From: Gammaproteobacteria bacterium
Lineage (GTDB): Bacteria > Pseudomonadota > Gammaproteobacteria > GCA-001735895
Length of the DNA: 32,922 nt
Direction of reading: 5' to 3'
Assembly: GCA_024638385.1 (NCBI GenBank)
Contig: JAHEKJ010000032.1
Span: 1 to 32,922, forward strand
Part shown: piece after piece, positions 2,805 through 32,922 of the stretch
How positions within the stretch are numbered: the stretch's first letter is position 1
Layout of the letters: every line of letters starts with the position of its first letter
The notes under the pieces: generated by a model
The model's database searches: none
Told to the model about the DNA's origin: nothing
What the model saw: the letters and a program-made list of their open reading frames with translations, nothing else
Program-made: the position numbers and the translations under genes

Positions 2805-3922
2805 GCCACGGGATCGACGTCGAATCGGCCTCGCTGACGCGGCGCGTGCTCGACGCGCTCAGGCTCGACCCGGTGCTGTTATTCCTCGTAGTCGTGCTGG
2901 CGCTGTTCGGTTGCATGGTGCTCTACAGCGCGAGCGGCTCGAGCGACGCGCTGGTGGTGCGCCAGGCAACGCGCCTGGTGGTCGCGCTGTTGCTGCTGGT
3001 CGCGGCCGCCAACCTGCCGCTGCGCGTGTTGCGCAAGATGTCCTGGTGGCTCTACCTCGGCGGCCTGCTGCTACTGCTCGCGGTGATGTATTTCGGCGAG
3101 ATCGGCAAGGGCGCGCAGCGCTGGCTCGATCTCGGCATTGTCCGCTTCCAGCCGTCCGAGATTCTCAAGCTCGCGGTGCCGATGATCGTCGCCGCCTATC
3201 TCGCCGACCGGGTTTTGCCGGTCGGCTGGAAAGAATTGCTGGTGTCGCTCGTGCTGGTCATGATCCCGGTTTTGATGATTGCCCGCCAACCCGATCTCGG
3301 CACCGCGATCCTGGTCGGCAGCGCTGGCTTCTTCGTGCTGTTTCTCGCCGGCGTCCGTTGGCGCGTCATGATCAGCTTCGGCGTGTTCCTGTCACTGATG
3401 GCGCCGCTGCTGTGGAAGTTCGCGCTGCACGATTACCAGCGCAATCGTATCCTGACGCTGCTCAACCCCGAGAGCGATCCGCTCGGTTCGGGTTATCACA
3501 TCATCCAGTCGAAGATCGCGATCGGTTCGGGCGGCGTCTACGGCAAGGGTTGGCTCAACGGCACCCAGTCGCAACTCGACTTCATTCCGGAGCGCTCGAC
3601 CGATTTCATCTTCTCGGTTTTCGGCGAGGAATTCGGGTTTTTCGGCAGCGTGGTCTTGATCTTGATCTATCTCACGATTATTTTCCGCGGCCTGTACATC
3701 GCGGCGCACGCCAACGACAATTTCGGCCGGCTGCTGGCCGGTGCGTTGAGCCTGACGTTCTTTGTCTACCTCTTCGTCAATACCGGCATGGTCGCCGGTA
3801 TTCTGCCGGTGGTCGGCGTGCCCCTGCCGTTGATCAGCTACGGCGGCACGTCGATGGTCACGTTGATGGTGGGATTCGGATTAATCATGGCGATTCGCTC
3901 GTCGAGGCGATTTCTGATTTGA
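2801..3922 (+). CDS. rodA: RodA, SEDS-family peptidoglycan glycosyltransferase
   Basis: Polytopic inner-membrane enzyme that polymerises lipid II into glycan strands during side-wall growth, in a complex with PBP2. It has 373 residues with about ten hydrophobic segments. Family landmarks are RFQPSE near residue 114, RQPDLG near 166, the large extracellular loop with the STDFIF motif carrying the presumed catalytic Asp268, and the C-terminal PLPLISYGG signature. The ATG lies in the last codon/stop of mrdA (ATGA) and its own stop overlaps the mltB start (TGATG). Length and order match the usual mrdA-mrdB pair. FtsW is the alternative SEDS member, but pairing with PBP2 points to RodA. Confidence 0.96.
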   Translation: MSHGIDVESASLTRRVLDALRLDPVLLFLVVVLALFGCMVLYSASGSSDALVVRQATRLVVALLLLVAAANLPLRVLRKMSWWLYLGGLLLLLAVMYFGEIGKGAQRWLDLGIVRFQPSEILKLAVPMIVAAYLADRVLPVGWKELLVSLVLVMIPVLMIARQPDLGTAILVGSAGFFVLFLAGVRWRVMISFGVFLSLMAPLLWKFALHDYQRNRILTLLNPESDPLGSGYHIIQSKIAIGSGGVYGKGWLNGTQSQLDFIPERSTDFIFSVFGEEFGFFGSVVLILIYLTIIFRGLYIAAHANDNFGRLLAGALSLTFFVYLFVNTGMVAGILPVVGVPLPLISYGGTSMVTLMVGFGLIMAIRSSRRFLI

Positions 3923-4917
3923 TGAAAAAAATTGTTTTGGGATTGAGCCTGCTGCTGCCGCTGAAGGCGCAGGCGCTGGAACTCGTTGCCGGCGCCTACC
4001 AGGGTCGCGCCGACGTGGCCGCCTTCATCACGCGGATGGCGGGCGAGACGGGTTACACCGAAACGGAACTCGTCGACCTTTTCGCGCGGGTCGAGAAACA
4101 GGAACACCTGTTCGCGCAGCTCGATCGGCCGGCCGAAAAGGAACTCGACTGGTATCAGTATCGCGCAATCTTCGTCAAGGACAAGCGTATTGCGCGCGGC
4201 GTCGAATTCTGGCGGCGACACCGCGAGTTGCTTATGGAAGTCAGCGAAAAGACCGGCGTGCCGGCCGAGATCATCGTCGCGATCATCGGCGTCGAAACCT
4301 TCTACGGCATCTACAAGGGCAAGGAGCCGGTGTTCGACAGCCTCGTCACGCTCGCCTTCGACTATCCTCGCCGGGCAAAATTTTTCATGCGCGAGCTGGA
4401 GCAGTTCCTGTTGCTCGCCAGGGAGCAGGGATTCGATCCGCGCGCGCTGCGCGGCTCCTATGCCGGCGCGATGGGCGTGCCGCAATTCATTTCGTCGAGC
4501 TACCGCAACTACGCGGTCGATTTCGACCAGGACGGCCAGGTCAACTTGTTCGACAGCATTCCGGATATCGCCGCGAGCGTCGCCAATTACTTCGTCAAGC
4601 ACGGCTGGCGGCGCGACGGCCGCGTCGCGCGACCCTTGTCGCTGGCCGAGGATCATGCGCTCGAAGGGCTCGAACCCGGGGTCAGGCCGGCGTATCGCTG
4701 GGCCGACCTGAAGCAACGCGGGCTGCGGTCGCAGTTCCAGATCGAGGACGACGCGTCGGTGTCGCTGATCCGCCTGCAACAGCGCGAGCGAGCCGAGTAC
4801 TGGGTCGGGTTCCAGAATTTTTACGTCATCACGCGTTACAATCACAGCGAGCTCTACGCGATGGCGGTTTATCAGCTGGCCAAATTGATCAGCCACCAGT
4901 ACAAGAAATCGATATGA
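3922..4917 (+). CDS. mltB: Lytic murein transglycosylase B
   Basis: Periplasmic enzyme of glycoside hydrolase family 103 that cleaves glycan strands with formation of 1,6-anhydro-MurNAc. It has 331 residues from the ATG at 3922, which overlaps the rodA stop. The N-terminus is a signal peptide ending AQA-LE, typical of signal peptidase I. No lipobox cysteine is present, so unlike E. coli MltB this copy should be soluble in the periplasm. The catalytic acid is Glu125 in the GVETFYG motif, and the SYAGAMGVPQF segment near residue 188 is diagnostic. A much longer reading frame is open upstream in the same phase, but it is out of frame with rodA and mrdA and is not protein-like. The stop overlaps the rlpA start (ATGA). 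Confidence 0.95.
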   Translation: MKKIVLGLSLLLPLKAQALELVAGAYQGRADVAAFITRMAGETGYTETELVDLFARVEKQEHLFAQLDRPAEKELDWYQYRAIFVKDKRIARGVEFWRRHRELLMEVSEKTGVPAEIIVAIIGVETFYGIYKGKEPVFDSLVTLAFDYPRRAKFFMRELEQFLLLAREQGFDPRALRGSYAGAMGVPQFISSSYRNYAVDFDQDGQVNLFDSIPDIAASVANYFVKHGWRRDGRVARPLSLAEDHALEGLEPGVRPAYRWADLKQRGLRSQFQIEDDASVSLIRLQQRERAEYWVGFQNFYVITRYNHSELYAMAVYQLAKLISHQYKKSI

Positions 4918-5711
4918 TCGCGCGCGGCGGAATCGTCCTGTTCGCGGCGAGCACGCTCGCTGCCTGCACCTTCGGCGTGCCGATCGGCGAGCGTGGCGCG
5001 GTCCCGCGCGTGGGAGTCCCGTCGGTCAACCGTTCCGAGCAGGGCAATCCTTCCTCGTACGTCGTCTACGGTCGGCGCTACTTCGTGCTCGACGATGCGG
5101 ACGGCTTTCGCCAGCGCGGGCTGGCCTCGTGGTACGGCACCAAGTTTCACGGCCGGCGCACGTCGAGCGGCGAGGTCTACGACATGTACGCGATGACCGC
5201 CGCGCACAAGACGCTGCCGATTCCGATCTACGTGCACGTGCACAATCTCGACAACGGCCGCTCGACGGTCGTCAAGGTCAACGACCGCGGCCCGTTCATC
5301 GAAGGTCGCATCATCGATTTGTCGTGGGCCGCCGCGCGCAAGCTCGGCATCGACGGCCCCGGCACCGCCAACGTCGAAATCAGCGTACTCGAAGCCGGCC
5401 AGGTCGAGCCCGATGACGAGGTGCGCACGATTGCGCTGGCCGACGCGGCGGCGCAGGACGTGCCGCTATTCGTGCAGACCGGTTCCTTTTCGAACTACGT
5501 CAATGCCACCAACATGGTCCGCTCGCTGCTCGCGCTCGACGAGTCGGCGGTCAAGATCTCGCGCCTCGAGACCGATGCGGGCGCACTCTACCGGGTTCGC
5601 GTCGGGCCGCTCTACGACATGGACGAAGCCAATGCGATCCTGCAGCGACTCAGGGACAAGGGATTTCAGACCGCGCGCATCGTCGTCGCCGAGGAACGCG
5701 CCAGACCTTGA
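4914..5711 (+). CDS. rlpA: RlpA septal-ring lytic transglycosylase lipoprotein with SPOR domain
   Basis: Outer-membrane-anchored lipoprotein; RlpA of Pseudomonas is a lytic transglycosylase acting on stem-peptide-free glycan at the division site. It has 265 residues. The lipobox LAAC puts the lipidated cysteine at residue 18. A double-psi beta-barrel domain follows (about 68-165), starting with GLASWYG and containing the two residues expected for catalysis: Glu87 in SSGEVYD and Asp124 in VNDRGPF. The last about 80 residues (PLFVQTGSF onward) form a SPOR domain that binds denuded peptidoglycan. The ATG is nested in the mltB stop (ATGA). E. coli RlpA is reported to have lost activity; the conserved acids here suggest an active enzyme. 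Confidence 0.94.
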   Translation: MIARGGIVLFAASTLAACTFGVPIGERGAVPRVGVPSVNRSEQGNPSSYVVYGRRYFVLDDADGFRQRGLASWYGTKFHGRRTSSGEVYDMYAMTAAHKTLPIPIYVHVHNLDNGRSTVVKVNDRGPFIEGRIIDLSWAAARKLGIDGPGTANVEISVLEAGQVEPDDEVRTIALADAAAQDVPLFVQTGSFSNYVNATNMVRSLLALDESAVKISRLETDAGALYRVRVGPLYDMDEANAILQRLRDKGFQTARIVVAEERARP

Positions 5712-5736
5712 GAGCGAATGAGCTGACCGCTACAAT
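5708..5736 (+). promoter_or_regulatory. Sigma-70-type promoter upstream of dacC
   Basis: TTGAGA (5708-5713) and TACAAT (5731-5736) are separated by exactly 17 bases and match the consensus at 10 of 12 positions. The -35 box overlaps the rlpA stop codon. Transcription would start near 5743, about 18 bases before the dacC ATG. This would give dacC and the genes after it expression independent of mrdA. Consensus match only, no experimental support. Confidence 0.6.
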
Positions 5737-5760
5737 CGCGACCTTTCGATAGCCGCTGCC

Positions 5761-6909
5761 ATGATCCCGATGAAACCGTTCTTGCCGATTCTCGGCCTCT
5801 TGATGACGCTGGCCGCCGGCGCCGGGCAGGCCGCGGCCAAACCGATCCCGGATCCGCCGGCGATCGACGCCAGCAGTTACTTCCTGATCGATTTCGATTC
5901 CGGCCGCGTGCTCGCGGAAAAGGATCCGGACAAGTCGATCGAGCCGGCGAGCATCACCAAGCTGATGACCGCTTACCTCGTCGACAAGGCGATCGCCGAC
6001 GGCGACATCGCGCTCGACGAGCGGGTCACGATCAGCGAGAAAGCCTGGCGCATGCAGGGCTCGAAGATGTTCGTCGAGGTCGGCAAGCAGGTATCGGTCG
6101 AGGACCTGATCAAGGGCCTGGTCATCCAGTCGGGCAACGACGCCAGCGTCGCACTGGCCGAGCACGTCGCCGGCTCCGAGGATGCCTTCGTCGGCTACAT
6201 GAACCACCAGGCGAACCTGCTGGGCATGCGCAACACGAATTTCACCAACGCCACCGGCTGGCCGGACGAAAATCATTACAGCAGCGCGCGCGACATCGCG
6301 TTGCTGACGCGCGCGGTGATTCGCGATTTCCCGGAAACCTATCGCCTGTATCGCGAGAAGGAGTACACCTTTAACGATATCCGCCAGTTCAACCGCAATC
6401 GGTTGCTGTGGCGCGACCCGACCGTCGACGGGGTCAAGACCGGGCATACCGAATCGGCCGGCTGGTGTCTGGTCGCGTCGGCGCAACGCGGCGACATGCG
6501 CCTGATATCGGTCGTCATCGGCACCGACTCGGACAAGGCGCGCACCCAGGCCAGCCAGGCCTTGCTGAACTACGGTTACCGATTTTTCGAGACGCACCGG
6601 CTCTACCGCGCCGAGGACATACTCAAGACCGCGCGCATCTGGTACGGCGACCAGGAGCAGGTGTCGATGGGCGTCGGCAAGGATATCTATATCACGATTC
6701 CGCGCGGTCGCTACCGCGATCTCGATGCGTCGATGGAGATCGACACCGAAATCGCGGCGCCGGTCGAGCGCGGCCAGCAGCTGGGGCAGGTCAATATCCG
6801 CCTGGACGACGAGCTGATCGTCAGCGAACAAATCGTCGCGATGCAGACGGTCGCCGAAGGCAGCCTGTTCACGCGCGCGCTGGACAGTATCAAGCTGATG
6901 TTTCGCTGA
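5761..6909 (+). CDS. dacC: D-alanyl-D-alanine carboxypeptidase (PBP5/6 family)
   Basis: Low-molecular-weight PBP that removes the terminal D-Ala from pentapeptides in the periplasm and so limits cross-linking. It has 382 residues. A signal peptide (about 1-26, ending AAA) precedes the peptidase S11 domain with S64-I-T-K67, S124-G-N126 and K226-T-G. A beta-rich PBP5 C-terminal domain follows. The final residues (FTRALDSIKLMFR) form the amphipathic membrane anchor typical of PBP5/6. A second ATG at 5770 is an equally possible start. The stop overlaps the next ATG (TGATG). The paralogue name (dacA or dacC) cannot be decided from sequence; position corresponds to E. coli dacA. Confidence 0.95.
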   Translation: MIPMKPFLPILGLLMTLAAGAGQAAAKPIPDPPAIDASSYFLIDFDSGRVLAEKDPDKSIEPASITKLMTAYLVDKAIADGDIALDERVTISEKAWRMQGSKMFVEVGKQVSVEDLIKGLVIQSGNDASVALAEHVAGSEDAFVGYMNHQANLLGMRNTNFTNATGWPDENHYSSARDIALLTRAVIRDFPETYRLYREKEYTFNDIRQFNRNRLLWRDPTVDGVKTGHTESAGWCLVASAQRGDMRLISVVIGTDSDKARTQASQALLNYGYRFFETHRLYRAEDILKTARIWYGDQEQVSMGVGKDIYITIPRGRYRDLDASMEIDTEIAAPVERGQQLGQVNIRLDDELIVSEQIVAMQTVAEGSLFTRALDSIKLMFR

Positions 6910-7196
6910 TGGTCGCCGAGCTGGAACCCGGTCAGTCGGCGCTCGCGCTGCTCGATTACCCGAGCCGTTACGCGCTCAAGGTGTTCGGCGTTCCGGGCGC
7001 CGAGTTCGAACGCGCGGTGCTCGAGCTGGTGCGCGCGCGTTGTCCCCAGGCCGAGCACATCGAAATCGGCCGGCGCCTGAGCAGCGGCGGCAAGTACCTC
7101 GCGCTGACGCTGACCTTCACGGTCTACAGCCAGCGCCAACTCGAAGAAATCTACCACGACCTGTACGCCTGCGAGCAGGTCGTCATGTCGCTGTAA
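6909..7196 (+). CDS. ybeD: YbeD, DUF493 family small regulatory-type protein
   Basis: A 95-residue protein starting at the ATG that overlaps the dacC stop. The DUF493 pattern is visible: YPSRYALKVFGVPG near the N-terminus, a conserved SSGGKYLALTLTF strand and a Y-DL-ACEQVVMSL end. The fold of the E. coli protein is ferredoxin-like and resembles the regulatory domain of phosphoglycerate dehydrogenase, but no function is firmly established. Its place between dacC and lipB is the same as in E. coli. I see no ligand-binding motif that would indicate a role. Confidence 0.9.
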   Translation: MVAELEPGQSALALLDYPSRYALKVFGVPGAEFERAVLELVRARCPQAEHIEIGRRLSSGGKYLALTLTFTVYSQRQLEEIYHDLYACEQVVMSL

Positions 7197-7238
7197 GCGC
7201 AACAGGCAACTTCGCCGGACTGGTGTAAACTCCGGGTC

Positions 7239-7916
7239 ATGAGCGCCCCGAACCTCGCCGACCTTGCCCCGCCCGCCGCTCTGGCGCCGCTGCGCGTGCG
7301 CCGAGTCGGGGCAACCGACTATGTCGAAACCTGGGACGCGATGAAGGCTTTCACCGCAAACCGTGATGCCGCGACCGCCGACGAGCTGTGGATCACCGAG
7401 CATCCGCCGGTTTTCACCCAGGGCCTGAACGGTCGTGCGGAACACCTGCTGGCGCCGGGCGATATTCCCGTCGTGCAGATCGATCGCGGCGGCCAGGTCA
7501 CCTACCACGGCCCGGGCCAGCTCGTGCTCTATTGCCTGCTCGACCTGCCGCGGCTCGGCCTCGGCGTCAAGGGCCTGGTCGCGCTGATCGAGCGTTCGAT
7601 CGTCGAATGGCTCGCCGGTTATGGCATCGACGCGCAAACGCGCAGCGGCGCGCCGGGGGTCTACGTCGGCGCGGCCAAGATCGCGGCGCTCGGATTGCGC
7701 ATTCGAAAAGGATGTTGCTATCATGGCCTGAGCCTGAACGTCGACATGGATCTCGAACCGTTCAGCCGGATCAATCCGTGCGGCTACGCGGGGCTCGCGG
7801 TAACCCAGCTGCGGGATCTCGGCGTCAGCCTCGCGGTCGAACAGGCGGGCGCCGGGCTCGCGGCGCAACTGACAGGAAATCTCGTTGAAAAAGCATCAGG
7901 TCGAACAGGGCGTTAA
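7239..7916 (+). CDS. lipB: Octanoyl-[acyl-carrier-protein]:protein N-octanoyltransferase
   Basis: Transfers octanoyl groups from octanoyl-ACP to the lipoyl domains of 2-oxoacid dehydrogenases and GcvH in the cytoplasm, the first step of lipoate synthesis. It has 225 residues with the family signature [14 protein letters not shown] near residue 87. The catalytic Lys147 (AAKIAALG) and Cys181 (NPCGYAG) form the acyl-transfer dyad. The substrate then passes to LipA, encoded immediately downstream with a 32-base overlap. The last about 15 residues, which overlap lipA, are not conserved-looking. The ATG at 7239 is the first plausible start after ybeD; a strong ribosome-binding site is not obvious. 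Confidence 0.96.
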
Positions 7917-8832
7917 ACTCAAGGGCGCCGACAAGGTCGCGCGCATCCCGATCAAGGTCGTGCCGTCGACGCAGGTCAAGCGCAAGCCGTCGTGGATTCG
8001 CGCCAAGGCGCCGACGGGTAAGCGAGTACAGGAGCTGAAGGCGCGATTGCGGGAAAATCATCTGCACACGGTCTGCGAGGAAGCCTCGTGCCCGAATCTT
8101 GGCGAATGCTTTTCCAAGGGCACCGCGACCTTCATGATCATGGGCGATATCTGCACGCGGCGCTGCCCGTTTTGCGATGTCGGCCACGGCCGCCCGAACC
8201 CGCTCGATGCCGACGAGCCGCGCCATCTCGCCGAAACCATTCGCGACATGGGCCTGCGCTACGTCGTCATCACGTCGGTCGACCGCGACGATCTGCGCGA
8301 CGGCGGCGCGCGGCATTTCGTCGACTGCATCCTCGAGACGCGTCGACTCAATCCCGAGATCAAGATCGAAATCCTGACCCCGGATTTTCGCGGGCGCATG
8401 GACGTCGCGCTCGAGATCATGACCGCCGCGCCGCCCGATGTCTTCAACCACAACCTTGAGTCGGTGCCGTCGCTGTACAGGAAGATTCGCCCCGGATCGG
8501 ACTACCAGTGGTCGCTCGACCTGTTGCGCCGCTTCAAGGCGATGCATCCCGGCGTGCCGACCAAGTCCGGGCTGATGCTCGGTCTCGGCGAGGATCTCGA
8601 CGAGGTCCGGCAGGTGCTGCGCGACATGCGCGCGCATGACATCAACATGCTGACGCTGGGGCAGTACCTGCAGCCGAGCCTCGACCACCTCGCGGTCGAG
8701 CGCTTCGTGACGCCGGAAGAATTCGACGAACTCGGCGCCTACGCCGAATCGCTCGGCTTCGACCAGGTTGCGAGCGGGCCGATGGTGCGCTCGTCCTATC
8801 ACGCCGACCTGCAGGCCGAAGCCGTCCTCTGA
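7885..8832 (+). CDS. lipA: Lipoyl synthase (radical SAM), TTG start
   Basis: Inserts two sulfur atoms into protein-bound octanoyl chains using two [4Fe-4S] clusters. It has 315 residues. The auxiliary cluster cysteines are C64-x4-C69-x5-C75 and the radical-SAM motif is C90-x3-C94-x2-C97. The C-terminal RSSYHAD contains the conserved serine that ligates the auxiliary cluster. I start it at the TTG at 7885 because AGGA (7874-7877) lies 7 bases upstream and the basic N-terminal extension is usual in this family. The first 32 bases lie inside the end of lipB, which suggests coupled translation. The nearest following gene is convergent nadE. Confidence 0.96.
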
Positions 8833-14489: not shown

Positions 14490-14523
14490 CCCTGTAATTT
14501 TTAATGTTTAGAGGATGGCATCC

Positions 14524-17109
14524 ATGCGAATGGATCGATTGACCAGCAAATTTCAGGAGGCCCTTGCCGACGCGCAATCGCTCGCGGTCGGGCGCGATCA
14601 CCAGTTCATCGAGCCGGTGCATCTGATGATCGCCTTGCTCGACCAGCAGGGCGGTTCGGTGCGCCCGCTGTTGTCGCGCGCCGGGGTCAATTTCAATCGG
14701 CTGCGCTCGCAGCTCGGCGAACTGCTCGACAAGTTGCCGCAGGTCGAAGGCGCCGGCGGCGAGCTGCACATCTCGAATTCGCTCGGCAAGTTGCTCAACG
14801 TGACCGACAAGCTCGCACAGGAGCGCAAGGACCAGTTCATCTCGAGCGAGCTGTTCGTGCTCGCCGCGCTCGACGACAAGGGCCCTCTGAAGGACGCCCT
14901 GACCGCGGCCGGCGCCGACAAGCAGGCGATCGCCGAGGCCGTGGATGCGATTCGCGGCGGCCAGTCGGTCGACAGCGCCGGCGCCGAGGACCAGCGTATG
15001 GCGCTGGAGAAATACACGATTGACCTGACCGAGCGCGCCGAGCAGGGCAAGCTCGACCCGGTCATCGGCCGCGACGAGGAAATCCGCCGCGCGATTCAGG
15101 TTCTGCAGCGGCGCACCAAGAACAACCCGGTGCTGATCGGCGAACCCGGTGTCGGCAAGACCGCAATCGTCGAGGGCCTCGCCCAGCGCATCATCAACGG
15201 CGAGGTCCCCGAAGGTCTCAAGAACAAGCGCGTGCTCGCGCTCGACATGGGCGCGCTGATCGCCGGCGCCAAGTTTCGCGGCGAATTCGAGGAACGCCTG
15301 AAGGCCGTGCTGCACGATCTGGCCAAGCAGGAAGGGCAGATCGTCCTGTTCATCGACGAGATGCACACGATGGTCGGCGCCGGCAAGGCCGAGGGCTCTA
15401 TGGATGCGGGTAACATGCTCAAGCCCGCGCTTGCGCGCGGCGAACTGCACTGTATCGGCGCGACCACGCTCGACGAGTACCGCAAATACGTCGAAAAGGA
15501 CGCCGCGCTCGAGCGCCGCTTCCAGAAGGTGCTGGTGGAGGAGCCGAGCGTCGAGGACACGATCGCGATCCTGCGCGGCCTGAAGGAGCGTTACGAGGTG
15601 CATCACGGCGTCGACATCACCGACCCGGCGATCGTCGCCGCGGCGACGCTGTCCTACCGCTACATCACCGACCGCCAGCTGCCTGACAAGGCGATCGACC
15701 TGATCGACGAGGCCGGCAGCCGGATTCGCATGGAAATCGATTCCAAGCCCGAGGAAATGGACCGGCTCGAGCGCCGCCTGATCCAGCTCAAGATCGAGCA
15801 GGAAGCGCTGAAGAAGGAAAGCGACGCGGCGAGCAAGAAGCGCAAGCAATCGCTCGAAGAAGAAATCGACAAGCTCGAGCGCGAGTATTCCGATCTCGAG
15901 GAGATCTGGAAGTCGGAAAAAGCCTCGCTGCAGGGAACGACGCACATCAAGGAAGCCCTCGAACGCGCGCGCCTCGATCTCGAGACGGCGCAGCGCGCGG
16001 GCGACCTCGCGCGCATGTCCGAGCTGCAGTACGGCCGCATTCCCGAGCTCGAGAAGCAGCTCGAGCAGGCGGCCGATGTCGAGCAGGACATGCGCCTGCT
16101 GATCAACAAGGTCGGCGAGGAAGAGGTCGCCGCGGTGGTCTCGCGCTGGACCGGGATCCCGGTGTCGAAGATGCTCGAGTCGGAAAAGGAAAAACTGCTG
16201 CAAATGGAAGATCGCCTTGCCGAGCGCGTGGTCGGCCAGCAAGAGGCGGTCAGGGCCGTGTCCGACGCGATCCGGCGCTCGCGCGCCGGCCTCGCCGACC
16301 CGGCGCGGCCCAACGGCTCGTTCCTGTTCCTCGGCCCCACCGGGGTCGGCAAGACCGAGTTGACCAAGGCGCTGGCGCAGTTCCTGTTCGATACCGAGGA
16401 CGCGATGGTGCGTATCGACATGTCCGAGTTCATGGAGAAACACAGCGTCGCGCGCCTGGTCGGCGCGCCGCCGGGATACGTCGGTTACGAGGAAGGCGGC
16501 TACCTGACCGAGGCCGTGCGCCGGCGGCCGTACTCGGTGATCCTGCTCGACGAAATCGAGAAGGCGCATCCGGAAGTTTTCAACATCCTGCTGCAGGTGC
16601 TCGACGACGGTCGCCTGACCGACGGCCAGGGCCGCACGGTCGATTTTCGCAACTGCGTGATCGTGATGACATCGAACCTCGGCTCGAGCGAGATCCAGGC
16701 GCTGGCCGGCGAGCACAATTACGACCAGATCAAGCAGGCGGCGATGGCGCAGGTGGGGCAGCATTTCCGCCCCGAGTTCGTCAACCGGATCGACGAAATC
16801 GTCGTCTTCCACCCGCTGACGCAAGAGCAGATCCGCGCGATCGCGCAAATCCAGCTGCGCGGCCTGATGTCGCGCCTCAAGGACAAGGACATCGGCATCT
16901 CGATCAGCGAAGCCGCGCTGGACACGCTCGGCGAACTCGGTTTCGACCCGGTTTACGGCGCGCGGCCGCTCAAGCGCGAAATCCAGCATGCGATCGAAAA
17001 CCCGCTGGCGCGCTCGATCCTGTCGGGCGAATTCGAGCCGGGCGACCTGATCGCGGTCGACATCGACGACGGGCACCACTTCAGTTTCGCCAAGCAAAGC
17101 GTACACTGA
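14524..17109 (+). CDS. clpB: ClpB, ATP-dependent disaggregase
   Basis: Hexameric AAA+ chaperone that, with DnaK, extracts polypeptides from aggregates. It has 861 residues: N-terminal Clp-N domain, first AAA+ module (Walker A GEPGVGKT with Lys212), long coiled-coil middle domain (about 405-525, rich in E/K/L) that marks ClpB, and second AAA+ module (GPTGVGKT with Lys610, then the YGARPLKR sensor-2 motif). I chose the ATG at 14524 because GAGGA (14511-14515) lies 8 bases upstream and [10 protein letters not shown] matches the normal ClpB N-terminus; an ATG at 14515 overlaps that ribosome-binding site. A sigma-32 promoter precedes it and a GC-rich hairpin follows. Confidence 0.98.
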
Positions 17110-17242: not shown

Positions 17243-19660
17243 ATGGCGGTTCTAGGCTCGATCCTGTTCAAGCGAACGCTGAAGAAATTTCTCGCCTGCG
17301 ACGACCTCGAAGGCGAGAAGGGCATCGCGCTGATCGAAAAGTTGCGCGAGTCGTCTAAGGATTCGCTGTCGGACCTGATCGAGGTCATTCCCGACACCGA
17401 CGGCATGCACCGCGCGGTGCTCAACGAGATCTGCCTCGAGAACGTCGGCATCGGTACCGAGGAGCTGTTCCTCGACAGCCTCGACAATACCGCGACGACG
17501 ATACGCGCGACCGCGGCGGATATCCTGGGCAAGTCGGCGCAGATCAACCCGAGCAAGCTGTTCAAGAAACTGCACGAATCCGAGGCTTCGCGCACCGAGA
17601 TCATCGATATCCTCGCGTTTCAGCGCGAGAACCTGAATCCCGAGCAGATCATCACCAACGCGGTCAAGCTCGACAAGGCCCATGCCGAGAAGCTGCTGAA
17701 ACTGGCGCAGGAATCGAAAAAGCCGCTCAACCTCGACATGCTCCGCCTCGAGCCCGACTCGATAGAAAGCCCGACGCTCAAGATCATACTGCTGCGATAC
17801 CTCGCCACCGTCGAGCAGCCCGAGGTTGCGCAGTTGATAGCCCGCTTCCTCACCGACACCAACCGCACCGTCGTCATCGAGGCGCTCAAATCGCTGAAAA
17901 ACCTGCCGGTCGGATTCGATGCGTCGGTGCTGCTGCCGCACGTCGAGACCCTGTCCGAGGTCGAGCGCGAAATCGCGCTCGAGATCATCAAAGCGCGGGC
18001 CGACGGCGAGCTGGTGGCGAAGCTCGCGCCCTGGACCTGTGGCAAGGACGACCAGGTGCGGGAAATCTTCATCAAGCTGCTGATTCGCTACGCTACCCCC
18101 GAAGCGCTGGAAAAATTCCTCCAGCGGCTCGAGCAGCAGGAATGGTACGGCAAGGAGCAGGCGATGAAGACCCTGCAGCGCTTTGCCACCGACAAGGTTT
18201 TCGCCGCGGCCGGCAGCCTGACCGACCACGACAACGAGTTCATCCGCGACCAGGCCCAGCAGCTGGCCGCGCGCAGCAGCGATCCGGCCGACCTGCAGGC
18301 GCTGTGGGACAACGCCATGCACGAAAACTGGCAGGTGCGCGAAACCGCAATCGAGGCGCTCGGTCGCTCCGCCAACCGCGAGTCGGTGAAGGTCTTGCGC
18401 AAGACCGTCAAGCAGTACCCCGAATCCGCGGTCGCGGTGCTGAAAGCGCTCGCCGAACTCGGCTTCGGCAAGGGTCTCGAGATCGCCTTCGGCGTGCTGC
18501 GCATGCCCGAGGCGCTGGTGCAGCGCGAGGCGCTCGAAACCATCGGCAAGCTGGTGACGCCGCAATACGCGCGCGCGGTGCGCGACAAGCTGATCGAAAA
18601 GGTGCCGAAGCTGCAGGCCACCGTGCGCGACACCGCCGGTGAAGTCGTCAACCGCCTGACCGAGGAGTACGATCTGCCCGCCCTCCATGTCGACCAGGAA
18701 ACCTTCTTCGAGACGCGCCTGACCAAGATTGCCGAGGCAACGCAACTGATCGACTCGGAGACCGGCCAGCCGGCAGCGCCGGCAGCGCCGGCCGACGCCA
18801 CCCAGCTCTACCAGCGAATCGAGGAATTCAAGGATGGCGACGTCTGGATGGAGCGCTACCTGATCGGCCGCGAAATCGGCCGCGGCGCAATGGGCCGGGT
18901 CATGCTGGCCGAGGACAAGATGGTCGGCGAACCGCTGATTCTCAAGTTCATGCATCCCGAACTGACCGCGGAACCGGGGTCCCATGAACGTTTTCTGCGC
19001 GAGGTGAAGTACTCGCGGCGGGTCAGCCACCCGAACGTCATCCGGATCCACGATTTGCTCAGCCAGAATTTGCTGAGTGCGATCTCGATGGAATATTTCG
19101 AAAGCCGCGGCATCGACGAGATTCTGCGCGAACGAAAATCCTTCGTACCGGTCGAAGGTCTCGAAATCCTGCTGCAGGTCGCCGGCGGCATGGCCGCGGC
19201 GCACGCGCAGGACGTCATCCACCGCGACCTGAAACCGAGCAATATCCTGATGAACGACAAGGGGCTGGTCAAGATCGTCGATTTCGGCATCGCCTCGGCG
19301 ACGTCCCAGTCCGATGCGACGCTGACCAAGACCGGCTCGATCATCGGCACCCCGGCGTACCTGTCGCCGGAGCGCGCCAAGGGCCAGGAAGCCGATCATC
19401 GCAGCGATATCTACGCGCTCGGTATCATCGCCTACGGCATGTTAGCCGGCAAACTGCCTTATTCGGGCGAACCGATGTCGCTGCTGTTCCAGCATCTCGA
19501 GGGCAAGGCGGTCCCGGTGCACGAGGTCAACGCCGATATTCCGCCGCGGATCAGCGAGCTGGTGCATAAAATGATGGCGGTCGAACTCGAAGACCGATTT
19601 CAGACGATGGACGAGGTGGCCTCGGCAATCGGCGAGATTCTCGCCGCGGAGAAATCGTGA
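17243..19660 (+). CDS. HEAT-repeat protein fused to a Hanks-type serine/threonine kinase
   Basis: An 805-residue cytoplasmic protein with no membrane helix. Residues 1 to about 500 are alpha-helical, with HEAT-like repeats (for example NWQVRETAIEALGRSAN and ALVQREALETIGKLV) that usually form a protein-binding solenoid. A short Ala/Pro linker (about 512-520) leads to a complete kinase domain (about 535-800): glycine loop G546-R-G-A-M-G551, ATP lysine Lys568, HRDLKPSN with catalytic Asp662, DFG with Asp680, a Ser/Thr-rich activation segment, then GTPAYLSPE. All residues needed for activity are present. The substrate is unknown. Its stop overlaps the bolA start (GTGA), so the two are translationally coupled. 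Most bacterial Hanks kinases carry the kinase first and a membrane helix; this order and the soluble solenoid are unusual. Confidence 0.92.
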   Translation: MAVLGSILFKRTLKKFLACDDLEGEKGIALIEKLRESSKDSLSDLIEVIPDTDGMHRAVLNEICLENVGIGTEELFLDSLDNTATTIRATAADILGKSAQINPSKLFKKLHESEASRTEIIDILAFQRENLNPEQIITNAVKLDKAHAEKLLKLAQESKKPLNLDMLRLEPDSIESPTLKIILLRYLATVEQPEVAQLIARFLTDTNRTVVIEALKSLKNLPVGFDASVLLPHVETLSEVEREIALEIIKARADGELVAKLAPWTCGKDDQVREIFIKLLIRYATPEALEKFLQRLEQQEWYGKEQAMKTLQRFATDKVFAAAGSLTDHDNEFIRDQAQQLAARSSDPADLQALWDNAMHENWQVRETAIEALGRSANRESVKVLRKTVKQYPESAVAVLKALAELGFGKGLEIAFGVLRMPEALVQREALETIGKLVTPQYARAVRDKLIEKVPKLQATVRDTAGEVVNRLTEEYDLPALHVDQETFFETRLTKIAEATQLIDSETGQPAAPAAPADATQLYQRIEEFKDGDVWMERYLIGREIGRGAMGRVMLAEDKMVGEPLILKFMHPELTAEPGSHERFLREVKYSRRVSHPNVIRIHDLLSQNLLSAISMEYFESRGIDEILRERKSFVPVEGLEILLQVAGGMAAAHAQDVIHRDLKPSNILMNDKGLVKIVDFGIASATSQSDATLTKTGSIIGTPAYLSPERAKGQEADHRSDIYALGIIAYGMLAGKLPYSGEPMSLLFQHLEGKAVPVHEVNADIPPRISELVHKMMAVELEDRFQTMDEVASAIGEILAAEKS

Positions 19661-26643: not shown

Positions 26644-29226
26644 TCACTCGCGGACGAGCTGCTTCAGGCGGTAGAGAATTTCCAGCGCCTCGCGCGGACT
26701 CAGCGCGTCGGGGTTGATCGCGTCGAGCTCGTCGAGGAGTGCGCTCGCCGCGGGAGATTCGCCGGTCTCGACCGGCGCGGCGAACAGGTCACCCTGCCCG
26801 TGGTTAGACTGTTGCTCGAGCTGCTGCAATTTCTCGCGCGCGAGGCGGATGGCCGATGCCGGGACGCCCGCGAGGCGCGCGACCTGGAGGCCGTAACTCT
26901 GGTTCGCGGGGCCGGGCTTGACCGCGTGCAGGAAGATGATGTCGTCGCCGTGCTCGACCGCGTCGAGATGCACGTTGGCGATCGAATCGTATTGCTCCGG
27001 CAACAGCGTCAACTCGAAGTAGTGGGTCGCGAACAGCGTGAACGCGCGGTTGCGACGCGCGAGGTGATCGGCGCAGGCCCAGGCCAGCGCGAGCCCGTCG
27101 AAGGTGCTCGTGCCGCGACCGATTTCATCCATCAGCACCAGACTCGAGGCGCCGGCGTTGTTCAGTATGTTGGCGGCTTCGGTCATTTCGACCATGAAGG
27201 TCGAGCGTCCGCTGGCGAGATCGTCGCTCGCGCCGATGCGGGTGAAGATCTGGTCGACCGGGCCGAGCCGGGCGCGGCGCGCGGGCACGTAGCTGCCCAT
27301 GTAGGCGAGGATGACGATCAGCGCGGCCTGGCGCATGTAGGTCGACTTGCCGCCCATGTTCGGCCCGGTGATCAACAGCATGCGCCGCGCATCGTCGAGG
27401 CGCAGATCGTTGGCGACGAAGGTTTCGTCGAGCGCCGCCTCGACCACCGGGTGGCGGCCGGCCTCGATGTCGAGCAGCGGTTCCGGCACAAGCTCCGGCG
27501 CCTGCCAGTCGTGCAGGTCGGCGCAGCGGGCGAATGTGACGAGCACGTCGAGCTGCGCCAGCGCTCGCGCCGTTCGCTGCAGCGGCGCGAGGTCCTCGCC
27601 GAGCTGGCCGAGCAGCGCGTCGTAGAGATATTTTTCGCGCGCGAGTGCCCGCTCGCGGGCGCTGAGCACCTTGTCTTCGAACGCCTTGAGCTCGGGAGTG
27701 ATGTAGCGCTCGACCGCCTTCAGCGTTTGCCGGCGGACATACTCGTCGGGCACCGCGCCGCTCTGCGCCTTGCTGACCTCGATATAGAAACCGTGGACTC
27801 GGTTGTAGGCAACCTTGAGCGACTGGATGCCGGTCTTGCGCTGCTCCTGCGCCTCGAGATCGAGCAGGAACTGGTCGGCATTGGCCGAGAGTTCGCGCAG
27901 TTCGTCGAGGTCCGGGTCGAAGCCGGCCCGCATGACGCCGCCGTCGCGAATCAGCATCGGCGGATCGTCGACGATGGCCGCGTCGAGCAGCGCGACGATT
28001 TCGGGATGATCGCCGATCTGCGCGGCCAGTTCGTCGAGCAGCGGGCTGTCGCGCCGCGCAAGCAGGGCCTGTAGCTGCGGCAGCAGTTGCAGCGTCGCCG
28101 ACAGCGTCGACAGGTCGCGCGGGCGCGCCGAGCGCAGGCCGATGCGCGCAAGAATTCGCTCGATGTCGCCGATCGCGGCGAGACTGTCGGCAAAGGCCTC
28201 GAACTCGCGGTTGTCGAGCAGGCTCGTAACCGCGTGATGGCGCCGGCGGACGCGCGCCTGGTCGCGCAACGGCCGCTGGATCCAGCGCGCGAGTTCCCGG
28301 TGTCCCATCGCCGTCCGGCAATGATCGACGATGCCGAGCAGGCTGTGGTCCGGCGACTGCTCGCCGATCGGGCGTACGAGCTCGAGATTGCGCCGGCTGT
28401 TGGCGTCGATGACGAGCGAATCGTCGGCGCGCTCGAGCCGCGGCGGCTGCAGGTGAACGAGTTCGGTCCTGAGCGTCGACTCGAGATAGGTCAGCAGGCA
28501 GCCGGCGGCGCCGAGCGCGACTTTCGCCGCGGCGATGCCGAACCCGTCGAGGTCGCGCGTGCCGAACTGCGCGCACAGCAAGCGCGTCGCGCTGTCGAGA
28601 TCGAAGTGCCATGGCGGGCGCGGGTGGGCGCGCGCGCGTAAATCCGCCGGCAGTGGCGGATCCTCATCCTCGCTGAACAGGATCTCGGCCGGCGCGAGCC
28701 GCGCGATTTCGTTGTCGAGCTCGACCTCGCCGGCGAGTTCGGTCAGGCTGAAGCGGCCGGAACTGGCCTCGAGCGCCGCCAGGCCCCAGCGTTCGCGGTG
28801 TCGCAGGATCGCGCACAACAGGTTTTCGCTGCGGTCCTGCAGCAAGGCCTCGTCGGTCAGCGTACCGGGCGTGACGACGCGCACGACCCGGCGCTCGACC
28901 GGGCCCTTGCTCGCCGCCGGGTCGCCGATCTGCTCGCAGATCGCGACCGCCTCGCCAGCGCGTACGAGCTTGCCGAGATAATTGTCGACCGCGTGATAGG
29001 GAACCCCGCACATCGGGATTGGTTCGCCCGAGGACTGGCCGCGTTTGGTCAGCGTAATGTCGAGCAGCCGCGCGGCCTTGCGCGCATCGTCGTAGAACAG
29101 CTCGTAAAAATCACCCATGCGGTAGAACAGTAGCGTGTCGGGATGATCAGCCTTCAGCCGCAAATATTGCTGCATCATCGGCGTGTGCTTGCCGAGATCC
29201 GCAAGCGCGTGGTCGGCCGTGGTCAC
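26644..29226 (-). CDS. mutS: DNA mismatch repair protein MutS
   Basis: Recognises mismatches and small loops and starts repair with MutL. It has 860 residues (E. coli 853). The mismatch-reading wedge is F40-Y-E42 in GDFYELF. The ATPase has Walker [10 protein letters not shown] with Lys627 and Walker B LMDE with Asp700-Glu701, followed by GRGTSTFDG and the signature HYFEL. The C-terminal segment after about 800 is the variable linker plus tetramer region ([24 protein letters not shown]). The start is a GTG at 29226 with GGAGG 7 bases upstream. Its neighbour fdxA is a common partner; gor lies 198 bases upstream. Confidence 0.97.
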
Positions 29227-29320
29227 GTCCTGCCTCCACGCCGGTCGGTCTGGTGTCGTATCAGCGCCATATCGAATCAGGGCCGCGCGGGCCCCGGAGT
29301 TGCATCGACAGGCTGCGCGA

Positions 29321-29339
29321 CGCGCCCTGATCGGGCGCG
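29321..29339. terminator. GC-rich hairpin between gor and mutS
   Basis: CGCGCCC (29321-29327) pairs with GGGCGCG (29333-29339) around a 5-base loop, about 85 bases after the gor stop. No T-run follows on the minus strand, so it could be a Rho-assisted end of gor or a leader structure of mutS. Confidence 0.35.
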
Positions 29340-29424
29340 CGCGGCCGCGTCGAAATACGGCGTATCCTAGTGCTTGCGCGCCGGTTTGAAAAGGGCAGTC
29401 GCGAGCCTCGCGGACCGGAACGGG

Positions 29425-30843
29425 CTAGCTGGCCTCGCGCCACGCGGCGGCGGCGTCGGATGCGCCGGCCTCGACGCGCACGGGGGTGGCGATCTTCATC
29501 GTGACGAGTTCCTCGGCGCTGGTCGGATGGATCGCGATCGTCGCATTGAGGTCGGCCTTGGTCGCGCCGAGCCTGAGCGCGACCGCGAAACCCTGCAGGA
29601 TTTCGTCTGCCTGGTCGCCGATCAGGTGGATGCCGACGACGGTTTCGTCGTCGCCGGCGCAGACCAGCTTCATCGCCGTGGTCGTGCCGTGCTCCGACAG
29701 CGCGTAGCGCATCGGCGTGAACTCGCTCGTGTAGACGCTGATCTGGTCATCCGGATAAGCGGCGCGGGCCTCGGCCTCGGTCAGGCCGACGCTGCCGACC
29801 GGCGGGTGGGCGAAAACGACGCTCGGTACATTGCCGTAATCGACCCGGCTGTCGGGTCGGTCGGCAAACAGGCGCGCGGCGAGCTTGCGACCGGCGGCGA
29901 TGGCGACCGGCGTCAACGCGGCTTTGCCGGTGACGTCGCCGATCGCGTAAATGCCCGGCACGTCGGTATTTTCATAGTCGTCGACCGGTATGATGCCGCC
30001 CGGCGACGCGTCGATGCCGGCGGCATCGAGATCCAGGCCGCCGACGTTACCGCGCCGACCGACCGCCCAGATCAACGTGTCGAAGCCGCCGATCGTTTCG
30101 CCGCCGGTGCCGCTGACGCGCAGCTCTTTGCCGTCCCGTTCGACCGTTTCGACGCGGAAATTCGTTCGCAGATCGATGTTCTGGAGCCGCATTTCACTAC
30201 CCAGCAGCTTGCCGATCATCGGATCGAAGTGCGCGAGAACATGCGACTCCATCGCCAGCAGGGTCACCCGCGAGCCGAGCGCGTTGAGCATCCCGGCCAG
30301 CTCGACGCCGATGTATCCGGCGCCGACGATGGCGACCCGTTGCGGCTGCTCGGCCAGGGCAAAAAAGCCGTCGGAGGTGATGCCGAGTTCGGCGCCGGGA
30401 ATGGCCGGTACGACTGGACGGCCGCCGGTGGCGATGACGATGTGATCGGCCCGGTAATGCCGACCGTCGACCGCCACGGTGCGCGCGTCGACGAAACGGG
30501 CATGGCCTTCGATGCGCTCGATGCCGCGCGCCGCGACGTGACCGTGCCAGTATTCGCGGATGCCGTCGATGTAGGCGTCGCGTCGAGACACGAGCTCGGC
30601 CCAGTCGGTCGCGCCGCGCTCGGCATCGATGCCCCAGGCGCGGGCATCGTCGACCGCGTGCGCGATCTGCGCCGCGTACCACATGATCTTCTTCGGCACG
30701 CAGCCGTTGTTGACGCAGGTGCCGCCGAGCTCGCGCGCTTCGATCAGCGCGACGCGCCGGCCGTGTTCGGCCGCGCGCTCGGCGAAGGCTAACCCGCCGC
30801 TGCCACCGCCGATAACGATGGCGTCGAAATGCCGTGATTGCAT
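29425..30843 (-). CDS. gor: Glutathione-disulfide reductase family enzyme, probably NADH-preferring
   Basis: FAD disulfide reductase of 472 residues. FAD-binding GGGSGG is at 12-17, the redox disulfide is C43-VNNG-C48, the pyridine nucleotide loop is GAGYIG at 174-179, and the active-site His-Glu pair is in HPTSAEE near the C-terminus. In NADPH-dependent E. coli Gor, Arg198 and Arg204 hold the 2'-phosphate; by-eye alignment gives Met198 and Ala204 here, plus Gly179 and Glu199. This is the direction of the engineered NADH switch and of natural glutathione amide reductase. A peroxiredoxin-glutaredoxin fusion lies 67 bases upstream on the same strand. GGAG lies about 8 bases before the ATG. A 20-residue Ala-rich C-terminal tail is unusual. 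Confidence 0.92.
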   Translation of the reverse strand: MQSRHFDAIVIGGGSGGLAFAERAAEHGRRVALIEARELGGTCVNNGCVPKKIMWYAAQIAHAVDDARAWGIDAERGATDWAELVSRRDAYIDGIREYWHGHVAARGIERIEGHARFVDARTVAVDGRHYRADHIVIATGGRPVVPAIPGAELGITSDGFFALAEQPQRVAIVGAGYIGVELAGMLNALGSRVTLLAMESHVLAHFDPMIGKLLGSEMRLQNIDLRTNFRVETVERDGKELRVSGTGGETIGGFDTLIWAVGRRGNVGGLDLDAAGIDASPGGIIPVDDYENTDVPGIYAIGDVTGKAALTPVAIAAGRKLAARLFADRPDSRVDYGNVPSVVFAHPPVGSVGLTEAEARAAYPDDQISVYTSEFTPMRYALSEHGTTTAMKLVCAGDDETVVGIHLIGDQADEILQGFAVALRLGATKADLNATIAIHPTSAEELVTMKIATPVRVEAGASDAAAAWREAS

Positions 30844-30866
30844 GTCGGTCTCCGGGTGCTTCAGTC

Positions 30867-30889
30867 GGGCGGCCGCGACGCGGCCGCCC
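30867..30889. terminator. Intercistronic hairpin between prx-grx and gor
   Basis: An 11-base arm (30867-30877) and its exact inverse (30879-30889) surround a single base, all G/C but that one. In RNA it would form a very stable stem-loop 21 bases after the prx-grx stop. Without a T-run it is more likely an attenuator or an mRNA-stabilising element than a full terminator. Confidence 0.55.
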
Positions 30890-30910
30890 TCGGGTAAGGT
30901 GGGTTGACGA

Positions 30911-31651
30911 TCAGGCCGCGAGATCGCCCGCGAGGTAGCCCTCGAGGTCCTCGGAGCCGCCGATCAGCGTGCCGTTGACGAAAACCTGCGGCACGGTCGA
31001 TTTGCCCGAGACCGCGCGCAGCGTGGCTTCGGTGTAGTCGCGGTTCAGCACCAGCTCTTCGAAGTCGATGCCGGCAGCGCGCAGCATGCCCTTGGCGCGT
31101 ACGCAGAATTCGCAACCCTTGCGCGTGAAGATGCTGACGTCGCGCGGCTTTTCCGCGAGCGGCGCGACGTAGGCCAGCATCGTGTCGGCGTCGGAGACCT
31201 CGAACGGGTCGCCCGGCAGGTCCGGCTCGACGAACATCTTCTCGACGATGCCGTCCCTGACGAGCATCGAGTAGCGCCACGAGCGCTGGCCGAAACCGAG
31301 ATCCTGCTTGTCGACTAGCATGCCCATCCCGGCGGTGAATTCGCCGTTGCCGTCGGGCAGGAAGGTCAGGTTGTCGGCGTGCTGCTCGCGCTGCCACTCG
31401 TTCATGACGAAGCAGTCGTTGACCGAGATGCAGACGATATCGTCGATACCGTGGCGCTTGAACACCGGCGCGAGCTGGTTGTAGCGCGGCACGTGGGTCG
31501 ACGAGCAAGTGGGCGTGAAGGCGCCGGGCAGCGAGAAGACGACCACCGTCTTGCCTTTGAACAGGTCGTCGCTCGAGACGTCGACCCATTCGTGATCGCG
31601 ACGGGTATGAAACGTGACCTGGGGTACGGGCTGCCTTTCTTTGCTTTGCAT
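30911..31651 (-). CDS. Peroxiredoxin 5-glutaredoxin fusion peroxidase
   Basis: Hybrid peroxidase of 246 residues that reduces H2O2 and organic peroxides with glutathione-type thiols. Residues 1 to about 165 are a Prx5 domain with the peroxidatic Cys49 in PGAFTPTC; Cys74 and Cys80 follow. Residues about 172-246 are a glutaredoxin with C180-E-F-C183, STVPQVF and the GGSEDL end. The layout equals the Haemophilus Prx-Grx protein and the Chromatium glutathione amide peroxidase. The glutaredoxin half can recharge the peroxidatic cysteine, and the reductase encoded next would recycle the disulfide. GGAGA lies 7 bases before the ATG, and an AT-rich control region lies upstream. Confidence 0.95.
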
Positions 31652-31689
31652 GTTGGTTCTCCGGTATTTGACGAATTTGAATGGTGGGT

Positions 31690-31730
31690 AGAATACGTTC
31701 GATTTATTAATAGGTAAAATTTTATATTAC
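31690..31730 (-). promoter_or_regulatory. AT-rich control region of prx-grx with candidate promoter and operator
   Basis: On the minus strand TTTACC (31718-31713) and TATTCT (31695-31690) are separated by 17 bases, an 8-of-12 match. A near-palindrome (31714-31730; GTAA and TTAC ends, 6 of 7 arm positions paired) overlaps the -35 box. The stretch 31700-31757 is strikingly AT-rich against its GC-rich surroundings. An OxyR-type spacing of ATAG/CTAT blocks was looked for and not clearly found, so the regulator is unknown. Confidence 0.35.
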
Positions 31731-31822
31731 TAAGAATTCAATATAAAAAATAAATCAATGTTTCGTGCCGATGGAGTGACTGCCCTGGTCGACGGGTAAA
31801 TTAAGCCGGGCCTGCCGTGCGC

Positions 31823-32515
31823 CTAGGATTCGATGTCGATCAGAACTTCGTTGCGGCGCAGAAACGGCAGTGCCCACGGCGGGTCGTAGGCCGCGGCGCG
31901 CGGCGTCGACGCCGGCGCTAGCCCGCGCCCGCGCAGCCAGTCCTCGAGCGCCGCACGTTCGCGGCGATAGTGGTTCTCGCGCCAGCGGCCGCTGTAGCGC
32001 ACCGCGGCGACGGTTCGCCGGGGTTCGGCCTCGAGCCTGACCGCGTCGTCGGTCGGCCGGGGCGCGCTATCCGCGGTGAAAGTCGATGGCAGGACGAAGG
32101 CGAAACGCCAGCCCTGTTCGCCGGGCTCGCCGATGACCGGTGCCGTCATGGCGATTTCGGTGGAATCGTCGCCATTGCCCGGCTGCGCGATCACGGGTGA
32201 GGTCATCGCGATTTCGCCGCGCGTCGTGTTGGCGCCCGAAATGTAGGCGAACAGCCGCCTGAAAGCCGTGTTGCCGGCCTGGTCGAAGTCGGCGTCGACG
32301 GTAGTCATGGCCACGACCCGCGGCTCATATTCGCGCAGCTCGAAGCGCCCGTCGCGTTCGAGCAGGGTGTATTCCGCCTCTTCGGTGGTGCGGATGCCGA
32401 GCAGGCTGCAGCCGGATTGCAGTAGTAACAGAACCAGCAGCGGTGCGCGCGTGAGCAAACCGCGCTCACGCGTTCCCGGGGCCTGGCTGTCGCTGGTGAT
32501 TTTTGCTTGCGGCAT
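31823..32515 (-). CDS. SOUL/HBP family heme-binding lipoprotein
   Basis: 230 residues from the ATG at 32515 (a GTG at 32536 would add seven). A long hydrophilic N-terminus precedes a hydrophobic stretch ending in the lipobox LQSGC, with Cys36 as the likely lipidated residue, so the protein should be anchored in a membrane facing the periplasm. The SOUL domain shows YTLLERDGRFELREYEPR-VA, two copies of the IAMT-PVI motif and the C-terminal YDPPW-LPFLRRNEV. Relatives bind heme or tetrapyrroles, but the bacterial role is not established. It lies upstream of the prx-grx unit on the same strand. The start is uncertain because no strong ribosome-binding site is seen. Confidence 0.88.
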   Translation of the reverse strand: MPQAKITSDSQAPGTRERGLLTRAPLLVLLLLQSGCSLLGIRTTEEAEYTLLERDGRFELREYEPRVVAMTTVDADFDQAGNTAFRRLFAYISGANTTRGEIAMTSPVIAQPGNGDDSTEIAMTAPVIGEPGEQGWRFAFVLPSTFTADSAPRPTDDAVRLEAEPRRTVAAVRYSGRWRENHYRRERAALEDWLRGRGLAPASTPRAAAYDPPWALPFLRRNEVLIDIES

Positions 32516-32571
32516 GACCAGCTTACGCCCGGTCACGGCGATCGGATCAGAGGCGGCCGGGGGCCGGGAGA

Positions 32572-32922
32572 TCAGTCGCGCTTGCGCCGCTGCTCGGGGT
32601 GCAGGCTCTTGCCGAGGATGTGCTCGCTTTTGCCGATCGCGTGATCGCTCGACGTGACGATGAACGGGTCGGGTTCATCGATCGCGACTTTACCCTCGTA
32701 GTTGACCGACGACAGGAAATGTCGCATGCAGTTGAGGCGTGCACGCTTCTTGTCGTCGGACTTGATGATCGTCCAGGGCGCGTCGGCGGTATCGGTATAG
32801 AAGAACATCGCTTCCTTGGCCTCGGTGTAGTCGTCCCACTTGTCGATCGACGCCTGGTCGATCGGCGACAGCTTCCATTGTTTGAGCGGGTCGTTTTTGC
32901 GCGATTCGAAACGCCGGCGCTG
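32572..32922 (-). CDS. ppk2: Polyphosphate kinase 2, C-terminal end (runs off the window edge)
   Basis: The last 116 residues of a PPK2-family enzyme, which transfers phosphate between polyphosphate and nucleotides in the cytoplasm. The reading frame is open to base 32922, so the Walker motifs are outside. Visible hallmarks are RRFESRKNDPLKQWKLSP, a DKWDDYT-AKE-MF segment, APWTIIKSDDKKRARLNCM and the following helix. These agree with the single-domain class I form. The C-terminal tail after about 25 residues from the end is basic and variable. It ends 56 bases before the SOUL gene. Confidence 0.93.
   Translation of the reverse strand, partial: QRRRFESRKNDPLKQWKLSPIDQASIDKWDDYTEAKEAMFFYTDTADAPWTIIKSDDKKRARLNCMRHFLSSVNYEGKVAIDEPDPFIVTSSDHAIGKSEHILGKSLHPEQRRKRD

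Follow-up and report, generated by a model that had tools for sequence, protein, structure and literature searches.

The question raised by this locus is whether a glutathione reductase-like flavoprotein, encoded beside a peroxiredoxin-glutaredoxin (Prx-Grx) fusion, feeds peroxide removal from NADH in the manner of the GarA-GarB system of Chromatium gracile, and whether the thiol that links the two proteins would be glutathione amide or plain glutathione. The pair lies on the minus strand of the window, by which we mean the whole 32,922-nucleotide stretch of gammaproteobacterial DNA that was analysed. A garA-like Prx-Grx fusion of 246 aa (30911-31651) sits immediately upstream of a garB-like class I flavoprotein disulfide reductase of 472 aa (29425-30843) on the same strand, and the pairing that had been noticed from the letters alone is thus borne out by a full fusion open reading frame only 67 bp from the reductase. 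The two genes run head to tail with a ggag-type stretch ahead of both ATGs, that of the reductase (ggag) lying in the 67 bp intergenic gap (30844-30910, minus strand), and a gap of this size is consistent with one transcript for both. No terminator-like site was found within 29200-32000, and upstream of the fusion there is a weak match to a sigma-70-like promoter (31719-31747, minus strand, 9/12), one where 0.3 would be expected, which is no evidence of function. Directly upstream of the operon is a gene for a SOUL heme-binding protein (31823-32536, minus strand), and a fragment of a polyphosphate kinase 2 (PPK2) gene occupies the edge of the window (32572-32922). Farther away, on the plus strand, positions 2801-8832 hold cell envelope genes (FtsW/RodA, a DPBB lytic transglycosylase-type protein with a SPOR domain and a PBP5-type carboxypeptidase) together with lipoate genes (an LplA/LipB-type ligase and lipoyl synthase), and a ClpB-like gene (14515-17109) is directly followed by a gene for an 805-aa protein with HEAT repeats and a C-terminal protein kinase domain (17243-19660).

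Both proteins of the pair retain the residues needed to place them in their families. The fusion has an N-terminal Redoxin (Prx) and a C-terminal Glutaredoxin (Grx) domain with catalytic cysteines in each (Cys49 in the Prx part; C180-E-F-C183 in the Grx part), and it is a full-length homolog of the Haemophilus influenzae HI0572 hybrid (1nm3), with which residues 1-241 align at an E-value of 7.5e-109. The reductase has the redox pair Cys43/Cys48 in the motif CVNNGC and passes two glutathione-disulfide reductase models, with 577.4 bits against TIGR01421 (glutathione-disulfide reductase; cut-off 556.15). It is at the nicotinamide cofactor site that it departs from the canonical enzymes, in which Arg198 and basic residues at 199 and 204 bind the 2'-phosphate of NADPH. 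Aligned with E. coli Gor (1ger), the reductase shows A179G, R198M, K199E and R204A, exactly the four differences claimed by the sequence-only reading, and has an NADH-like loop, 197-AMESHVLA-204, accompanied by Gly179. The loop aligns without a gap to both C. gracile glutathione amide reductase (GAR) and E. coli Gor, and the alignment places no basic residues at the 2'-phosphate site: Arg198 is missing, 199 and 204 are not basic, and what is seen instead is the GAR pattern, in which the basic residues are lost and position 199 is acidic. A loop of this kind suggests that the enzyme would prefer NADH. The parallel that had been drawn with an engineered, NADH-using E. coli Gor also survives, as 1ges has G179 and M198 in the same alignment columns; the two differ in that 1ges carries E197, F199, D200 and P204 where the natural enzyme here has A197, E199, S200 and A204.

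Among solved structures, the best match by sequence is C. gracile GAR (2r9z, E 9.5e-179), with 1ges behind it (E 2.3e-145); identity to 2r9z/2rab is 58-59% (264 of 451 aligned positions). The predicted fold gives the same answer: when an AlphaFold model of the reductase (mean pLDDT 87.7, with residues 438-472 below 50) was searched with Foldseek, 2rab/2r9z entries filled the first four places at TMq 0.92-0.93, ahead of E. coli Gor. Gly179, Glu199, Trp99, Arg379 and Glu22 (E. coli position 21, and referred to as Glu21 below) are common to the reductase and 2r9z, the last three being absent from the sequence-only reading. The differences are that GAR has Leu198, Arg201 and Phe204 in place of Met198, His201 and Ala204, and Lys22 in place of an Arg22 that is kept here, as is Arg319. 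The gene order, fusion then reductase, is also what we take to be that of C. gracile. Sequence, fold, clade and gene order therefore all agree with the proposed likeness to the Chromatium NADH-dependent reductase and its Prx-Grx operon, although the genome here, unlike the C. gracile system, also encodes an NADPH-type Gor. In M. gracile, an NADH-using amide disulfide reductase is accompanied by a GASH-dependent peroxiredoxin (PMC6336425).

We read the locus, with a probability of roughly 0.8, as a GarA-GarB-type peroxidase operon that provides a dedicated NADH-fed peroxide branch parallel to NADPH-fed glutathione reduction. The operon belongs to a known kind of system, of which the present locus is a new member, and as far as its residues can tell the reductase carries the sequence features of GAR. 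In such a branch, the Prx-Grx fusion would reduce H2O2 or alkyl hydroperoxides at Cys49 of its Prx domain, the attached Grx domain would use a small thiol of the glutathione type to resolve the Prx, and NADH would supply, via FAD and Cys43/Cys48 of the reductase, the electrons that turn the thiol disulfide back into the thiol. This coupling of the two gene products, and the physiology that goes with it, is what we infer for the cell.

The residue states named above are not chance, as they separate a clade of homologs. Homologs were taken from named genome records (the best 80 of 530 candidate loci, biased to close relatives), from 41 genomes of the same order, and from the Prx-Grx-adjacent reductases in a 230-genome sample of the class; 131 rows were collapsed to 120 at 98% identity, with two reference rows excluded. 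Of these, 44 (the reductase here included) have Trp99 and 76 have Tyr or Phe at this position; 31 of the Trp99 rows and 71 of the others come from the named records and the order genomes, and the class sample contributes only reductases that lie beside a fusion. An NADH-like loop, defined as no Arg198 and Asp or Glu at 199, occurs in 34 of the 44 Trp99 rows and in none of the 76 others. The clade is distinguished from other reductases by Trp99 and Arg379 together with an aromatic residue at position 98, positions 98 and 99 presumably lining the glutathione site, by human GR numbering. In a tree of 69 rows from which the cofactor loop was excluded, a single change accounts for Trp99, the 24 non-Trp99 rows making up one side of a starred branch (100/99), and the reductase and five same-genus relatives form a starred 6-row set (99/94). 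One Trp99 row on a long branch (L186) has Asp379. The behaviour of Arg198 is different: its state needs eight changes over the 69-row tree and it is kept in 7 of the 44 Trp99 rows (L096, L175, L180, L189, L018, L024 and L197), most of them with an acidic 199, which makes the cofactor loop variable against a stable pocket marker. One of the seven (L096, with Arg198 next to an acidic 199) lies within the same-genus 6-row set. Counting against our reading of the locus, the seven rows show that the choice of cofactor shifts readily and might be mixed, and it is possible that the Arg198-keeping Trp99 reductases are dual-cofactor enzymes. A modest new point is the lability of this loop among Trp99 reductases, as judged from the aligned residues, together with the occurrence of the same gene arrangement around Arg198-type reductases. 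A class-wide identity threshold was rejected as a means of separating GAR from Gor, as Arg198 types reach about 57% identity.

How closely are the fusion and the Trp99 reductases tied to each other in other genomes? In a first set of loci, from which two duplicates and the present locus's own copies were excluded and in which some near-copies remained, a same-strand upstream fusion (called at E <= 1e-40) was found at 26 of the 30 Trp99 loci besides the present one versus 0 of 78 Tyr99 loci. The distance from fusion to reductase, measured between stop-to-stop ORFs, ranged from -256 to 895 bases, and the four Trp99 loci without a fusion upstream are L016, L020, L027 and L099, the last of these near a contig end. 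A GAR-type gene, with Trp99 in every case, is carried by 15 of the 41 order genomes, and an Arg198-type Gor by 23 (21 of the 23 checked by residue; those of G008 and G013 sorted by identity alone); these counts include five genomes with both (the present one, G003, G005, G029 and G030), and eight have neither. The fusion is present in all 15 GAR-type genomes, adjoining the reductase gene in 14 (that of G003 is cut by a contig end) and lying with it at contig ends in G036. A full-length fusion is also found in 12 of the 26 order genomes without a GAR-type gene, of which nine also gave a match to Gor, always on a different contig, and three gave no such match.

In the sample of the class, the fusion occurs in 51 of 230 genomes, and at 20 of the 49 fusion loci examined (all but the present locus and that of G031) there is a reductase beside it: 15 of these have Trp99 and five Tyr or Phe99, four of the five with Arg198. 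At one locus (L174), the fusion-adjacent Tyr99 reductase has a loop with neither Arg198 nor an acidic 199. On a quick tree of 88 fusions, the presence of a Trp99-reductase neighbour changes at least 18 times, which suggests frequent gain or loss of that neighbour. A LysR/OxyR-like regulator, whose OxyR identity was judged by eye, recurs near GAR loci, at nine of them in one clustering of flanking ORFs and at ten in another (L010, L012, L018, L023, L024, L028, L096, L098 and L102 among others); the present locus is in neither cluster. Operon layout was considered as proof of NADH use and rejected. Because Arg198-type reductases also adjoin fusions, and because the Bordetella prxgrx-gorB pair, likewise adjoining genes for peroxide removal and likened to the present one by gene layout alone, was assayed in vitro with NADPH and GSH, GorB itself with NADPH and GSSG (PMC7794356), the layout is not diagnostic, and the residues of the reductase are more informative. 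Neither NADH nor glutathione amide follows from the gene arrangement by itself.

The sequence-only reading went further in suggesting that the organism might have moved its thiol redox onto NADH, and here the rest of the genome (G000, a metagenome-assembled genome that is 91.14% complete with 5.41% contamination) tells against it. A search for a second, NADPH-type gor found one on contig C157; its product has Arg198-Lys199, is 51% identical to the operon reductase and falls in a starred tree group with same-genus Gors. The contig has tetranucleotide usage similar to that of the present stretch (r 0.971), and at this level of contamination a closely related strain is a conceivable source of the second Gor. 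With gshA on C7 and gshB on C118, the genome should make glutathione, and the dsr sulfur pathway is represented by dsrA on C109. Together, the NADPH-type Gor, gshA and gshB leave a move of thiol redox onto NADH unsupported, and the presence of that Gor in the same genome makes a dedicated NADH-fed branch beside general NADPH-fed reduction most likely. A shift onto NADH may be closer to true in the two sister genera of the family, as the search found the GAR-type gene alone in 9 of their 10 genomes and neither type in G034 (79% complete). A same-genus genome (G001) encodes a Gor that shows no difference, across the columns used for the tree, from the Gor of the Olavius algarvensis Gamma 3 symbiont (L107/L058).

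Which thiol the branch would use is a separate matter, and the two answers weighed here are options within the main reading, so that the weight given to each overlaps with its 0.8. The first is a plain glutathione system with a cofactor switch only, in which NADH-driven GSSG reduction serves the Prx-Grx peroxidase, and we give this a little short of an even chance. It accords with the presence of gshA and gshB, with the retention of Arg22 and Arg319, and with the full-length fusions in order genomes that have no GAR-type gene, but less easily with the Trp99/Arg379 pocket or with the close identity to GAR, which is reportedly poor with GSSG (Km 6.9 mM). The homologous H. influenzae fusion, PGdx, uses GSH, and was studied in an assay coupled to an NADPH glutathione reductase (PMC1361801).

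The second is a true glutathione amide system, in which the cell produces the amide, the operon reductase acts preferentially on its disulfide and GSSG is left to the NADPH-type Gor; we regard this as possible, at appreciably less than even odds. Membership of the GAR clade speaks for it, as do the Trp99, Arg379 and aromatic 98 that set the clade apart. The Grx domain was also used as a reporter of the thiol, at position 217, which is presumably near the glutathione glycine, by E. coli Grx3 contacts. In a small sample, a basic residue is rarer here in fusions beside GAR-type reductases (7 of 27, the present one included) than in fusions elsewhere (10 of 14, two of the 14, those of G005 and G036, coming from genomes that hold a GAR-type gene). 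However, among the 88 dereplicated fusions, in which Cys180, Cys183 and Pro221 are invariant and 177 is always Arg or Lys, a basic 217 is found in 9 of 40 beside Trp99 reductases, 3 of 5 beside Tyr/Phe99 reductases and 16 of 43 for which no reductase was found, or 9/40 versus 19/48 for all the rest (Fisher p 0.11, with only 3 usable pairs in a tree-aware test, too few to point either way), and the fusion here keeps Lys217; our odds are the same with or without this comparison. Glu21, at the glycyl-carboxylate site, is a GAR feature that the reductase possesses and that has been used as a proxy for glutathione amide (PMC8877833), but it lacks specificity: 55 of the 76 Tyr/Phe99 reductases have it too, 47 of them with Arg198 and Lys or Arg at 199, and it was rejected as proof of the amide. 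In addition, Arg22 is lost in 37 of the 44 members of the Trp99 clade but not here.

No candidate for an amidating enzyme was found in G000 in the two families searched. GSP_synth (PF03738), which we take to be the family that amidates the glycine of glutathione with spermidine, is absent from this genome and from 41/41 genomes of the order. Asn_synthase (PF00733, E <= 1e-20) is present in one copy in 33 of the 41, G000 among them, in two copies in three, and absent from five. The two-copy genomes, G038-G040, are 3 of the 15 with a GAR-type gene and 0 of the 26 others; the second, longer AsnB-like open frame is on G038:C204, G039:C9 and G040:C53, and G040:C53 also carries dsrA. No ligase or amidotransferase was recognised in the flanks of the GAR loci, whose ORF clusters, judged by eye, comprise besides the regulator smaller ones common to 3-5 loci, and no amidating enzyme is named in the titles or abstract openings searched in the glutathione amide literature. 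The dsrA gene of the genome fits with the amide having been reported from sulfur bacteria (PMC6336425), but its presence in A. vinosum is disputed, one metabolomic study having found none, against a 1996 report (PMC4213376).

That the reductase is instead an ordinary NADPH glutathione reductase beside a Prx-Grx fusion is improbable, for although the NADPH-assayed Bordetella pair (PMC7794356) and the five Tyr/Phe99 enzymes beside fusions in the class sample, four of them with Arg198, provide precedents, the reductase here lacks Arg198, Lys199 and Arg204 and lies in the Trp99 clade.

Returning to the GarA-GarB-type, NADH-fed branch that we favour, a broader picture can be imagined in which the cell runs two thiol-disulfide circuits, one fed by NADH for peroxide and perhaps based on glutathione amide, the other fed by NADPH for glutathione, and in which the Trp99 clade is a peroxidase-dedicated family whose choice of nicotinamide has been switched repeatedly in the loop, independently of the substrate pocket; taken as a whole, we consider this doubtful. 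What the locus does offer is a way to take the problem apart. Glu21 alone, which published work has taken as a sign of glutathione amide, fails to separate GAR-type from Arg198-type reductases, and Trp99, Arg379 and the loop at 197-204 make the questions of cofactor and of substrate separately testable. For the family, the finding means that a GAR-type, apparently NADH-fed operon extends to a lineage with dsrA, one of whose members is closely related to a worm symbiont.
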